Shown here piece by piece: positions 1,356 to 5,697 of a DNA stretch of 64,000 nucleotides (position 1 is the first letter of the stretch; every line of letters begins with the position of its first letter). Made by a program: the position numbers and the translations under genes. The notes under the pieces were generated by a model. The model was not told the DNA's origin. It did not search any database and saw only the letters and a program-made list of their open reading frames with translations. The stretch is from Elusimicrobiota bacterium (GTDB lineage: Bacteria; Elusimicrobiota; UBA8919). The stretch spans positions 467,186 through 531,185 of the forward strand of contig JAQUMH010000001.1 in NCBI GenBank assembly GCA_028718185.1. Direction: 5' to 3'.

Positions 1356-3464
1356 CTATTTTTTCAGTTCTTTTATTTCAGTTGGAACAAGTTTTGAAAA
1401 ATCAGCAATCTGTATAAATTGATTATAAATAGCAGAAAGAAGCAATAACCGGTTATTTTTAACTTCTTCGTCTTTATCCATAATAAGAATCTTTTCAAAA
1501 AAACTATCCACCGGTTTTCTTAATGAAACTAGATATTGAAGTACGGTTTTATAATCATTTATTCCAATTGCTTTATCAATTTCCGATTTAATATCTAAAA
1601 ATACTTTATAAAGTGTTTTTTCTTCATTTTCTTTTAGCAACTCTTCTCTGACCTCTGATTTTTCATATCCTTTTTCTGATATTCTCGCTTGTTTCAGTAT
1701 ATTCCCTATCCGCTTAAATGAAGTGGCAATGGGTTCAAAATCAGGGAGAGTCCTTATTGAATGAACAGCAACAACACGGTTATATGAATCGTAAATATCA
1801 TCAAATTTAACTGATAAAACAGCATCTATTTCATCATTTTTAATATCTTTATTAGAAAAATATGTTGAAAGTCTTTGTTTTAAAAAATCCTTAACTTGTA
1901 ATATAATTTTTTCATTATTTTCAAACTTCAAAGGTTTATCATCTATTAACATATTTTCAATTGCCTGACTGGTTATTTCACTTAATGAAAAAGATAACTC
2001 TTTTTCAATTGCAATTCTTATAATGCCGACTGCTGTCCGCCTTAAACCATGCGGGTCAGCAGAACCTGTAGGAATTATTCCTATTGCAATATTACTTACA
2101 AGAGTGTCAATTTTATCAGCGACAGAAACAATTGATGCCTCACTCGAAACAGGTATTTTCCCGTCATATAGTATCGGCCACCAGTGTTGTTCAATTCCTT
2201 CAGCAACAAGTTCATCTTCCTTGTCCTGAATTGCACAAATTGACCCAAAAATACCCTGAAGTTCCGGAAATTCCGATACTGTTTCTGTAGCTAAATCTGC
2301 CTTGCATAAAAGGCAAAGGCGTTCAAGTGTTGATGTGTTAACATGTTGATGTGTTGAGGTGTTATTATTTAACCACATTGATAATTTTTTAATGCGCTGG
2401 GTTTTATCGTAAATTGTGCCTAATTTTTCCTGAAAAATAATTCCTTTTAACTTTTCAACTTTTTCTTCTAATTTTGTCTTTGTATCATTTTTGAAATAGA
2501 ACTCAGCATCTTCAAGACGGGCAGTGACCACCTTTTCATAACCCTCACGAATTGTTTCAACGTTTGTTGAAATACCGTCTTTAACTCCTATAAAAAATGA
2601 AATAATGTTTTTTGTTTTGTTATTATCAACAACAACAAAATTCTTTTGTCTTTTTAAGGTATTAGCTATTATTTCTTTTGGCAATTTTAAAAACTGCTCA
2701 TCGAATTTACAAAGAATAGCAGATGGGAATTCAATGAGATTGTTAACTGTTCCTAAAATTTCATTACTTTCCAAAATTTCACCTTTGTTTTTTACTTGCG
2801 AAAATACCGCTTTTTTAAGCATCTCTAACCGCAAATTCTGTTCTACTATAACGCTTTTGTTCCTTAAAATATCAACATACTTTTTAGGTTCAGTGATTTT
2901 TACTTTTTTATAGTAACGGATATATGTAATATTAGATGATTTTACATCTGCTATCTGGAATTTTATTACCTTTTTTCCATAAAGAGCCAAAACCCATCTA
3001 ACAGGACGAACAAACCTGAACCCGGATGATTCCCACTTCATTGTTTTAGGAAAAGTTAAAGAAGAAATTATTTTTTTTAAAATTGCAGGAAGGACTTCCT
3101 CGGTTTTTAACGCTAACTCATTTTTTATTGCACAAACCTTACCATTTTTCACTACCAGATTTGATACTTCAACACCGTATTTTTTCGCAAATCCTATTGC
3201 TGCAGGAGTAGGTTTACCTTCAGAAAATGCTGCGCTTTCAGAAGGTCCGGAAATTTCAGTTTTCAATATCTTCTGCTGTTCTGAAATATCTTCAACATAT
3301 AAAACCAAACGACGCAACGTTGCACAGACATTTATTTCCCTGAACTCCAACCGTGCAGTTTTTAATTCCTGTTCTGAAACTGCTTTTATCTGTTCAATAG
3401 CAGCCGGTAAATACCCTGCCGGTATTTCTTCACAACCAATTTCCAATAGAATATCCCTGCTCAT
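1356..3464 (-). CDS. glyS: Glycyl-tRNA synthetase beta subunit
   Basis: The beta subunit of the bacterial alpha2-beta2 GlyRS carries tRNA recognition and works with GlyQ to charge tRNA-Gly in the cytoplasm. The 702-residue length fits the family, with the N-terminal signature EIGCEEIPAGYLPAA, the conserved DPHGLRRTAVGIIRI block near residue 470 and a DALR-type anticodon-binding helical domain at the C-terminus. Its start overlaps the stop of the transposase ORF at 3461 by 4 bp (ATGA). Residues about 366-379 (TSTHQHVNTST) are not part of the family pattern. They are encoded by a 5 x 8-bp array at 2327-2366, which adds a short loop just before the conserved LERLCLLCKADLATE segment. The gene is otherwise intact. 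Confidence 0.96.
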   Translation of the reverse strand: MSRDILLEIGCEEIPAGYLPAAIEQIKAVSEQELKTARLEFREINVCATLRRLVLYVEDISEQQKILKTEISGPSESAAFSEGKPTPAAIGFAKKYGVEVSNLVVKNGKVCAIKNELALKTEEVLPAILKKIISSLTFPKTMKWESSGFRFVRPVRWVLALYGKKVIKFQIADVKSSNITYIRYYKKVKITEPKKYVDILRNKSVIVEQNLRLEMLKKAVFSQVKNKGEILESNEILGTVNNLIEFPSAILCKFDEQFLKLPKEIIANTLKRQKNFVVVDNNKTKNIISFFIGVKDGISTNVETIREGYEKVVTARLEDAEFYFKNDTKTKLEEKVEKLKGIIFQEKLGTIYDKTQRIKKLSMWLNNNTSTHQHVNTSTLERLCLLCKADLATETVSEFPELQGIFGSICAIQDKEDELVAEGIEQHWWPILYDGKIPVSSEASIVSVADKIDTLVSNIAIGIIPTGSADPHGLRRTAVGIIRIAIEKELSFSLSEITSQAIENMLIDDKPLKFENNEKIILQVKDFLKQRLSTYFSNKDIKNDEIDAVLSVKFDDIYDSYNRVVAVHSIRTLPDFEPIATSFKRIGNILKQARISEKGYEKSEVREELLKENEEKTLYKVFLDIKSEIDKAIGINDYKTVLQYLVSLRKPVDSFFEKILIMDKDEEVKNNRLLLLSAIYNQFIQIADFSKLVPTEIKELKK
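2327..2366. repeat. Octamer array inside glyS, 5 x 8 bp
   Basis: Units GTGTTGAT, GTGTTAAC, ATGTTGAT, GTGTTGAG and GTGTTATT run without a gap on the plus strand. They are read in frame as the loop TSTHQHVNTST of GlyS. The flanking protein sequence is ordinary GlyS on both sides. Confidence 0.9.
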
Positions 3465-3889
3465 TTATCTAACTCTTCCCAGTTTGGTTTTTCGACATCA
3501 GTATTATTATCAATATACTTGCGGATTTCATCCAATACTTTTTCATTACGAATAATGTGTTCATAATAGTTCAATTGCCAGAACCTTTTTCCGACAAAAT
3601 TATTTTTCTTTATCTCTAATGTTGTCTTTGATTTGAAATCCTGAATGTAGCGGCAAAGCGATAGCTTTGCTTCTTCTAAAACTAAAATAAAATGTAAATG
3701 ATTAGGTGTTATTTTAAAATAATCTAATTTTACATTTTCATGATTTTCTAAATTTTTCAGGTGTTTCTCAATTATCTCTCTATATTCAGAGCAGAGCTTC
3801 GCTCTGCAGCTACAACATATAGTGACAAAATAATATCCATTTATTGAATAATCATAATCTTTTAACCTGATGTGTTTCCTAAATATCAC
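3461..3889 (-). CDS. REP-associated tyrosine transposase (Y1/HUH family)
   Basis: This 142-residue single-domain Y1 transposase has the RAYT pattern: N-terminal [22 protein letters not shown], the HUH motif in TPNHLHFI, and the catalytic tyrosine region [24 protein letters not shown]. Such enzymes cut single-stranded DNA next to hairpins carrying a GTAG/GGAG foot and spread REP sequences. The start is a GTG overlapping the glyQ stop by 4 bp (GTGA), and the stop overlaps the glyS ATG by 4 bp. The gene is therefore translationally coupled inside an essential operon. Two REP-like hairpins lie within its own reading frame (3647-3670 and 3791-3813). The second encodes an unusual CSCRAKLC segment where relatives have a CTxxRxxLF-like stretch. 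All catalytic residues that can be recognised are present, so it may be active. Confidence 0.9.
3647..3670 (+). repeat. REP-like element inside the transposase ORF
   Basis: GTAG foot (3647-3650) followed by the hairpin GCAAAGC-GATA-GCTTTGC, plus orientation. It faces the copy at 3791-3813, so the pair has its GTAG feet on the outside. Confidence 0.7.
3791..3813 (-). repeat. REP-like element inside the transposase ORF
   Basis: Hairpin GCAGAGC-TTC-GCTCTGC followed by AGCTAC. Read on the minus strand this is GTAGCT plus the hairpin. The same stem occurs at 19460, 47520 and, in part, at 55712. Confidence 0.75.
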
Positions 3890-4728
3890 TTTTGGTTTTC
3901 CAGATACTTTTTTGCAACCCCTACTGCTAAATTTCTTACTCTTGTAATATAGGAAACTCTCTGACTTACTGAAATTGCACGACGGGCATCCAGCAAATTA
4001 AACGTATGGGATGTCTTCAAAACAAAATCATATGCAGGAAGAACCAGTCCCCTGTCAAGCAAATGTCTGCATTCCTTCTCATATTTATCAAAAAGTTCTC
4101 TTAAAAGTTCCACATCAGCTTCTTCAAAATTATATTTTGAAAATTGTTTTTCATCTTCAAGATGAATTTCACCATATTTTAATTCATCATTCCATAAAAT
4201 ATCATAAACCGACTTTTTTTTCTGAATATACATAGACAGCCGTTCAAGCCCGTATGTAATTTCTACGGTAATAGGATTTAATTCTATCCCTGCCATTTGC
4301 TGAAAATATGTAAACTGAGTTATTTCCATCCCGTCACACCATACTTCCCAGCCAAGACCGGAAGCACCGAGCGTTGGACTTTCCCAGTCGTCTTCAACAA
4401 ATCTAATATCATGTTTTTCAGGATTTAGTTCTATCGCCTTTAAAGAAGAAAGGTATAATCTTTGTATATTTTTAGGAGCAGGTTTAATAACAACTTGATA
4501 CTGGTAATACCGTTGAAGACGATTAGGATTTTCGCCATATCTCCCGTCAGCAGGTCTTCGGCATGGCTCCACATATGCAGCTGCCCATGGTTTCTCTCCA
4601 AGACATCTTAAAAAAGTAGCAGGATTGAATGTACCGGCACCTTTTTCCATGTCATAGGGTTGAGTTATTATGCAGCCTTGCTTTGACCAAAATTTTTCCA
4701 ACCGGAAAATAATTTCCTGAAAGTTCAT
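3886..4728 (-). CDS. glyQ: Glycyl-tRNA synthetase alpha subunit
   Basis: Class II aminoacyl-tRNA synthetase catalytic subunit that activates glycine, partner of GlyS. The 280 residues contain the invariant GlyQ stretches [38 protein letters not shown] (motif 2 region) and [23 protein letters not shown]. The length is normal for the family (about 290-300). No good ribosome site precedes the ATG, because the 20-bp gap to the upstream S23 gene, together with that gene's last codons, is made of octamer repeats (4730-4777). The stop overlaps the GTG start of the transposase by 4 bp. The product looks fully functional. Confidence 0.97.
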
Positions 4729-4729
4729 A

Positions 4730-4777
4730 AAAATAGTGCGATAGTCCTTTAGTGCGATGGTGCGATGGAGCGAATCA
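4730..4777. repeat. Octamer array (plus orientation) downstream of the S23 gene
   Basis: Six 8-bp registers: AAAATAGT, GCGATAGT, CCTTTAGT, GCGATGGT, GCGATGGA, GCGAATCA. The consensus GCGAT(A/G)GT matches the array at 5118-5180 in the opposite orientation. The last residues of the S23 protein (SIAPSH) and its stop codon are encoded by this array. Confidence 0.85.
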
Positions 4778-5111
4778 TTCCACTAACTAACTTTCCAACA
4801 ATATCTATTTGCTTAATTATTGAATCGACCTCAATCTGAATAACCATATTTAAATCCAAAGTAGCATAAAAATGACTTTTTAATTCTGCCAGTGAACTTC
4901 TTGATATCGTATAAAATTGTTTTCTATCTTTATATCCATAACGGGCAAAACCTTCAGCAATATTTGCCATTACCGATATAGATGCTCTCCGGATTTGCCT
5001 TACCAAATCCTTGTCTCTACCAATAAATTTATTTGCATTTTCATAAATAATTTTATTTAATTTTCTATCTTCTTGCCAAGCAATCAAATCCTCAAACTTT
5101 TTTATTCTCAT
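4749..5111 (-). CDS. Four-helix-bundle protein (S23 / IVS-protein family, Avd-like fold)
   Basis: The 120 residues match the small four-helix-bundle family first seen inside 23S rRNA intervening sequences: [19 protein letters not shown] at the N-terminus, [20 protein letters not shown] in the second helix, then [21 protein letters not shown]. Structurally the family resembles Avd, the accessory protein of diversity-generating retroelements, but no reverse transcriptase is present here. The molecular function is not established. The gene lies between recO and glyQ and is bracketed by octamer arrays of the same consensus in inverted orientation (4730-4777 and 5118-5180). Those arrays supply its leader and its last codons, which suggests that gene and repeats arrived as one unit. 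No strong ribosome site is visible. Confidence 0.85.
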
Positions 5112-5117
5112 TCTCTA

Positions 5118-5180
5118 TCTATCCCGCTATCGCACTATCCCACCATCCCACTATCCCACCACCATCCTGCTATCTCGCTG
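5118..5180. repeat. Octamer array (minus orientation) upstream of the S23 gene
   Basis: Units on the plus strand: TCTATCCC, GCTATCGC, ACTATCCC, ACCATCCC, ACTATCCC, a 3-bp interruption, ACCATCCT, GCTATCTC, GCTG. The reverse complement has the consensus G(C/G)GAT(A/G)GT, the same as the array at 4730-4777. The array fills the whole gap between recO and the S23 gene and overlaps the recO stop codon. Confidence 0.9.
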
Positions 5181-5697
5181 TTTTTAACGGATATGCCAAA
5201 TGTTCCTGCAAAATGTTTTCTAAAGGTACGTCCTCTTTTATTCCAAAACCCGTAAGATGCAAAAGCTTTTCGACAAAATCATCTTTCTTATTTGAGGTAT
5301 CTTTATTATTAAAAGCACTCTTACTGATTATAGAAAGACTTTCTTTTAATAAAAGAAACTTTTCGGTATTAGGTTGTCTAGCCGGCGTTAATGCATCCAT
5401 AACCTCACAAATGTATGACGCTTCGTAAAATTTTTTTATATTATATCTTATTAAAGAATTAGAATCTACAATAACACCACCGACAATTTTACCAAAATCA
5501 GCAGTTTCTCTTAAAAAAACACGAAATTCACAAACCACAAAAAGCTCAGTCAGGGAAGTAAGTTTTGCTTTTGACTTTCTTACACTTTTTGCAACTACTT
5601 TTATTTTACCGAAATCACTCGTGTATAGCGTCAAAACACGGTCGTAATCTCTAAAATCATTCTTTTTTATTACAATTCCTACAGTATTATGAATCAT
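5170..5697 (-). CDS. recO: DNA repair protein RecO (short form)
   Basis: RecO loads RecA onto SSB-coated DNA with RecR in the RecFOR pathway. The N-terminal OB fold is recognisable (GIVIKKNDFRDYDRVLTLYTSDFGKIKVVAKSVRK, residues 7-41), followed by the helical region with FYEASYICEVMDALTPARQPNTEKFLLL. The protein has only 175 residues against about 240 in typical members and has no CxxC zinc site. It ends with HLAYPLKTAR, resembling a shortened family C-terminus. The stop codon lies inside the octamer array at 5118-5180, so part of the C-terminal domain may have been replaced or lost when that array arose. Its position in the ybeY-CorC-recO-glyQ order supports the call. Confidence 0.85.
   Translation of the reverse strand: MIHNTVGIVIKKNDFRDYDRVLTLYTSDFGKIKVVAKSVRKSKAKLTSLTELFVVCEFRVFLRETADFGKIVGGVIVDSNSLIRYNIKKFYEASYICEVMDALTPARQPNTEKFLLLKESLSIISKSAFNNKDTSNKKDDFVEKLLHLTGFGIKEDVPLENILQEHLAYPLKTAR

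Follow-up and report, generated by a model that had tools for sequence, protein, structure and literature searches.

S23 genes have previously been described inside intervening sequences of 23S rRNA. In Coxiella, the intervening sequence contains an S23 open reading frame, is bounded by a 28-bp terminal inverted repeat that forms a stem, and carries a variable number of heptameric GACAGAT repeats before the reading frame, which earlier authors proposed to encode a mobility component (PMC4990558). Here we describe an S23 gene of an Elusimicrobiota bacterium that lies between inverted arrays of a short tandem repeat at the recO-glyQ junction, within a 64,000-nucleotide stretch of contig JAQUMH010000001.1 (positions 467,186 to 531,185; the window hereafter). 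We consider it likely that this locus holds a copy of a small, widespread mobile element, composed of an S23 gene with inverted 7-8-bp arrays as its ends. The same explanation, held as a whole at that strength, includes that the window element is of the same kind as the S23-coding 23S rRNA intervening sequences. Those of Coxiella, Leptospira and others share with it an internal S23 reading frame, stem-forming terminal inverted repeats, a length of ~430 bp and a sporadic distribution. RNase III cuts them out of the rRNA helices in which they are inserted, whereas the window element stands between two protein genes. In the open-access literature, we found no description of arrays as general, unit-variable ends, together with clean insertion sites, for S23 intervening sequences.

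Heptamer arrays without a carrier are known from Beggiatoaceae, cyanobacteria and Bacteroidetes, among them TAACTGA repeats (PMC4679880). The GGGAATC repeats of Xanthomonas and Nostoc occur in inverted pairs and close to stop codons, with 70-75 convergent (inverted) pairs in two Xanthomonas genomes (PMC4692102). For such arrays MacGregor saw no evident transfer mechanism, and Rehm et al. could generally not tie them to mobile elements (PMC4679880, PMC4692102). TAACTGA, GGGAATC and the cyanobacterial STRR repeats resemble the window arrays in being 7-bp tandem arrays that lie between genes, close to stop or start codons; they differ in that no mobile element or S23 gene had been tied to them. 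A search of the open-access literature (subscription papers and preprints lay outside it) returned no paper linking arrays to S23 genes outside rRNA.

The window S23 gene (4749..5111, minus strand) encodes a 120-amino-acid protein of the four-helix-bundle family 23S_rRNA_IVP (PF05635, E=9e-25), whose closest solved structure is 2GSC / XCC0516 (E=1.4e-11). S23 has a QxRRAxxSIxxNIAEGxxR motif, in which Q, R, N, E, G and R are conserved. PF05635 is the sole Pfam match in the element, and no transposase family was recognized there. Read in the sense of the S23 gene, the 3' arm (4736..4775, minus strand) is built of tandem ACTATCGC / CCATCGCA units and the 5' arm (5116..5172, minus strand) of tandem GGGATAGT / GCGATAGT units. 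On the plus strand, the arrays read GTGCGATAGT...GTGCGATGGTGCGATGGAGCGA at ~4736-4775 and CTATCCCGCTATCGCACTATCCCACCATCCCACTATCCCACCACC at 5116-5172. The original prediction, made from the DNA letters alone, placed the S23 gene between inverted arrays of one 8-bp unit, and this was confirmed: Tandem Repeats Finder gave a period of 8 for both arrays, with the unit GCGATAGT/GGGATAGT repeated head-to-tail, and the best local alignment of the arms scored 14 inverted versus 7.5 direct, a score of 13 being reached by only ~1% of shuffled flanks. We rejected a CRISPR array because the 7-8-bp units abut head-to-tail with no spacers between them. The positions also bear out the claim that the arrays supply the last S23 codons (SIAPSH and stop, in the 3' arm), the S23 leader and the end of recO, whose TAG stop codon (5170-5172) lies inside the 5' arm. 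The array contributes just the last few recO codons; truncation of recO by the element was rejected, as the S23-free relatives have a recO of the same length that also ends in '...YPLK'. The RNA is predicted to fold with its arms paired (z=-4). From comparison of the junction in nine genomes (G000-G008), the whole element would span 4733..5175 (~440 bp, outer ends +/- ~10 bp), which matches in size a precisely defined 428-bp insert in a Trichormus plasmid.

Is this arrangement general? S23 loci were gathered from contigs by one peptide pattern, and the sampled relatives are not independent. Bracketing was scored by aligning the left flank with the reverse complement of the right flank, with a threshold of at least 15. 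Over all usable loci, inverted 7-8-bp arrays bracketed 102 of 151 PF05635 genes (67.5%), compared with 10.6% for the direct orientation, 0.8% when the left flank was paired with the right flank of another locus, and 0% for shuffled flanks. Because cross-locus pairing gave just 0.8%, each arm matches its partner rather than a motif common to all loci. Among 60 relatives, 45/66 S23 genes scored at least 15 inverted and 4/66 direct, and 6 of 469 control open reading frames of the same loci (1.3%) reached the threshold inverted. Bracketing was seen for 56 of 84 S23 genes in named genomes, a set of 80 loci that spans >20 phyla or major groups and takes in archaea. Array periods were mostly 7 (or 14) and 8, the unit varied from locus to locus, and the G-rich strand pointed inward in 96 and outward in 4 of 100 polar cases. 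Inverted arrays flank all four PF05635 genes of the window's genome, and the unit is a different one at each gene (GCGATAGT, GGAAGTA, GCGGATAA and GTTATAGA). Thus, one check proposed with the original prediction had a clear outcome: short inverted arrays are much more frequent around PF05635 genes than around other genes or in mismatched pairs of loci. A 23S motif was absent from every sampled S23 locus, and one query of 50,697 phage records for phage carriage gave zero matches.

Evidence for movement comes from plasmids of cyanobacteria. The same unit of S23 gene plus arrays is present at three unrelated Nostocales plasmid sites, with S23 copies 76-82% identical in DNA, and homology between these copies extends to the outer edge of the arrays, beyond which it is at background level. 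At site 1, the filled Trichormus plasmid reads AAAAA[GTAAT]AAATCAGAATTCAG...S23...TTCTTCTTT[GTAAT]TAACAAA and the empty site in related plasmids (~97% identity over matched flanks) reads AAAAAGTAATTAACAAA; the insert is 428 bp with an exact 5-bp duplication, GTAAT. At site A, plasmid pNsp_a of Nostoc ATCC 53789 is filled, GG[TTCTA]AATCAGGAG...TTCTGGA[TTCTA]GTTATGC, and pNsp_c is empty, GGTTCTAGGTTATGC; TTCTA is duplicated exactly, with a 1-nucleotide difference left next to it. A further S23 element, built on a different unit, occupies site A2 of pNsp_c, in GGTGAGGTAATGGGATTTG. Its flanks GAGGTAATG and AATTATGGG share ATG, or TAATG/TTATG with one mismatch, and the latter is probably the 5-bp duplication. 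Insertion was over the stop codon of the upstream gene at each of sites 1, A and A2. Presence and absence were also seen at cas10-cmr3, at nrdB-nrdA and in Aulosira p2, where the junctions have diverged too far for a duplication to be read. The element between cas10 and cmr3 is present in Picosynechococcus PCC 7003 and missing from plasmid pAQ6 of PCC 7002. Separately, we observed S23 elements in cas operons of cyanobacterial plasmids (L299, L309 and L316 versus L323), at cas6-cas4 twice with different units and at cas10-cmr3 once. '23S rRNA IVP' appears among CRISPR-linked proteins (PMC10910872), and these insertions may explain its presence there.

The S23 gene and its arrays move together as one unit. 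The view that gene and repeats form one element, whose way of spreading the original prediction left unidentified, is therefore supported both by the array enrichment and by the plasmid empty sites. As in insertion sequences (IS) and miniature inverted-repeat transposable elements, there are inverted ends, short S23-less versions with the same arms and, at the plasmid sites, target duplications and precise empty sites. In contrast to these, the ends are tandem arrays whose unit differs between elements, and there is no recognized transposase. S23 is under purifying selection as a protein: the ratio of nonsynonymous to synonymous substitution rates (dN/dS), restricted to copy pairs divergent enough to measure, lay at 0.10-0.15 for plasmid copies from different sites and at 0.08-0.19 for those of recO-glyQ. 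In addition, where the flanks of a pair are not homologous, protein similarity goes with unit similarity (Mantel r=0.16, against a maximum of 0.077 in 500 permutations), a correlation that comes mostly from pairs with >60% protein identity.

We propose a model for how such an element may spread. The element would insert whole at gene ends inside operons, often over a stop codon, and the 5-bp duplication would leave both neighbouring genes usable. S23, whose solved relative is a pentamer of four-helix bundles, may bind its own repeat unit through several subunits, pair or load the two ends, and then supply or recruit a strand-joining activity. The arms may pair into an RNA stem, as in the rRNA intervening sequences, and so soften the effect on the host operon. 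More tentatively, and with less than even confidence, we suggest that S23 represents a new class of mobility protein. It would be a pentameric helical bundle without a known nuclease fold that recognizes its own 7-8-nucleotide unit, joins the inverted ends and performs or recruits the 5-bp-duplicating insertion; protein and unit would co-evolve, S23-less hairpins would move in trans, and the rRNA intervening sequences would be the rRNA branch.

Several observations weigh against a mobile S23-array element. S23 has no known catalytic domain. Clear inverted arrays are missing around about one-third of S23 genes, and ~10% of the genes lie between direct arrays. (L134 and L168 are loci whose S23 genes are bracketed by direct, not inverted, arrays.) Duplicated 5-mers outside the arms were barely enriched over 101 loci (0.396 versus 0.324, z=1.6; not significant), and therefore the 5-bp duplication rests on the three plasmid sites. 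A second check proposed with the original prediction was to look for an empty site among close relatives; it too supported the prediction, with one correction: empty sites were precise to the nucleotide in the cyanobacterial plasmids, but no clean one was found at recO-glyQ within the family. S23 genes with related units occupy this junction in G000, G002 and G005, whereas an inverted-array hairpin without S23, each with another unit, is present in four of seven same-family relatives (G001, G003, G006 and G007). The region upstream of glyQ differs in G004, and the junction is free of arrays in G008, which belongs to another family. The S23-free hairpins in four relatives indicate that arrays can persist or arise without S23. 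Such hairpins are common elsewhere too, including in G018, where an S23 gene was not found. A comparison of relatives (no hairpins in 380 kb of S23-negative versus 8 in 379 kb of S23-positive DNA) had suggested that hairpins need S23 in the same genome; strict dependence is ruled out by G018, which has hairpins. Arrays of the GCGATAGT unit unlinked to S23 also occur elsewhere in the window's genome. We noted GCGATAGT arrays upstream of several similar genes in that genome (L005, L009, L014, L016, L022 and L025; proteins ...SGVTDTTPP...), which were perhaps copied along with these genes. Thus, the predicted link between arrays and S23 held strongly across S23 loci, but it is not obligate, because four of the seven relatives keep an S23-free hairpin at recO-glyQ and arrays occur alone. 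S23 needs arrays more than arrays need S23, as arrays also exist without it.

These hairpins favour an alternative in which they are independent, non-autonomous elements that a host or IS200/IS605-type enzyme mobilizes, S23 settling in their loops or being swapped in by recombination between arrays. We regard this as rather unlikely. It accounts for S23-free hairpins in many places, including the four relatives, and for an S23-less family of 182-183 bp found at many sites in Nostocales plasmids (L313:295-485, L326). Members of this family share the arms of S23 elements, with the unit order kept in both, enclose a structured loop of stem-loops and have outer ends of their own. One copy in Nostoc N6 precisely interrupts an S23 gene beside GATAA with no duplication. 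This element could be moved by an IS200/IS605-type enzyme, which keeps the alternative alive. Moreover, a Y1_Tnp gene is present in 19/23 S23-bearing relatives versus 6/37 without S23. However, S23-array elements enter naive sites whole (428 bp at site 1) and with duplications, unlike the 182-183-bp element; the units track the S23 protein; and genes other than S23 are almost never bracketed. Four S23-bearing genomes (G016, G024, G047 and G053, one of them a single contig) gave no Y1_Tnp (PF01797) match, so that the dependence on a Y1 transposase that characterizes repetitive extragenic palindromes and their associated transposases (RAYT) does not hold here.

It is improbable that ordinary slippage repeats were made palindromic by fold-back template switching, with S23 a host gene present by chance. 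Units and copy numbers vary fast, and the recO-glyQ unit changes between relatives in both arms together, as this explanation would have it, but just 1.3% of the control genes in these loci are bracketed, and it is contradicted by the precise filled and empty sites, which, like the recurrence of one element at several sites, show that a whole unit is inserted. Slippage or template switching may be how the arrays turn over. Still less probable is that S23 acts like Avd of diversity-generating retroelements, a homologous four-helix-bundle family (PMC10053308), and that the unit spreads by reverse transcription: two weak PF05635 matches in the phylum adjoin a reverse transcriptase (G034:C20 and G044:C17) and are probably true Avd genes, but an RVT_1 match is lacking in 18 of the 23 S23-bearing relatives, and dependence on reverse transcriptase was rejected on that ground. 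Unlike Avd, the window S23 gene has no adjoining reverse transcriptase; none was found in the 64-kb window, in agreement with the predicted absence of a retroelement, and the nearest RVT_1 match is ~37 kb beyond it.

The neighbours of the window element are recO upstream (5170..5697, minus strand; PF11967 and PF02565) and glyQ downstream (3886..4728, minus strand; PF02091, with matches in 59/60 relatives). Their adjacency is kept in most of the family, and the junction was rightly described as conserved. A Y1_Tnp (RAYT-like) transposase gene lies between glyQ and glyS (3461-3889, minus strand), and G006 also has a Y1_Tnp gene adjoining glyQ (C115:20529-20924). Within glyS there is an in-frame 8/16-bp tandem array (2327-2363; protein ...NNNTSTHQHVNTSTLERL...), which looks as if a single array had entered the coding sequence.

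In many bacteria, PF05635 genes go under the names 'S23 ribosomal protein' or 'four helix bundle protein', with no function given. That most S23 genes carry inverted heptamer arrays and move with them as a unit gives S23 a testable role. Some, at least, of the hitherto unexplained heptamer arrays in cyanobacteria, Bacteroidota and other groups are accounted for by S23 elements, and the rRNA intervening sequences are recast as one branch of a general element. Two long-standing puzzles, the movement of rRNA intervening sequences and the spread of heptamer repeat arrays, are thereby linked. Should S23 be the driver of this movement, it would count as a mobility protein with a fold unlike those of known transposases.
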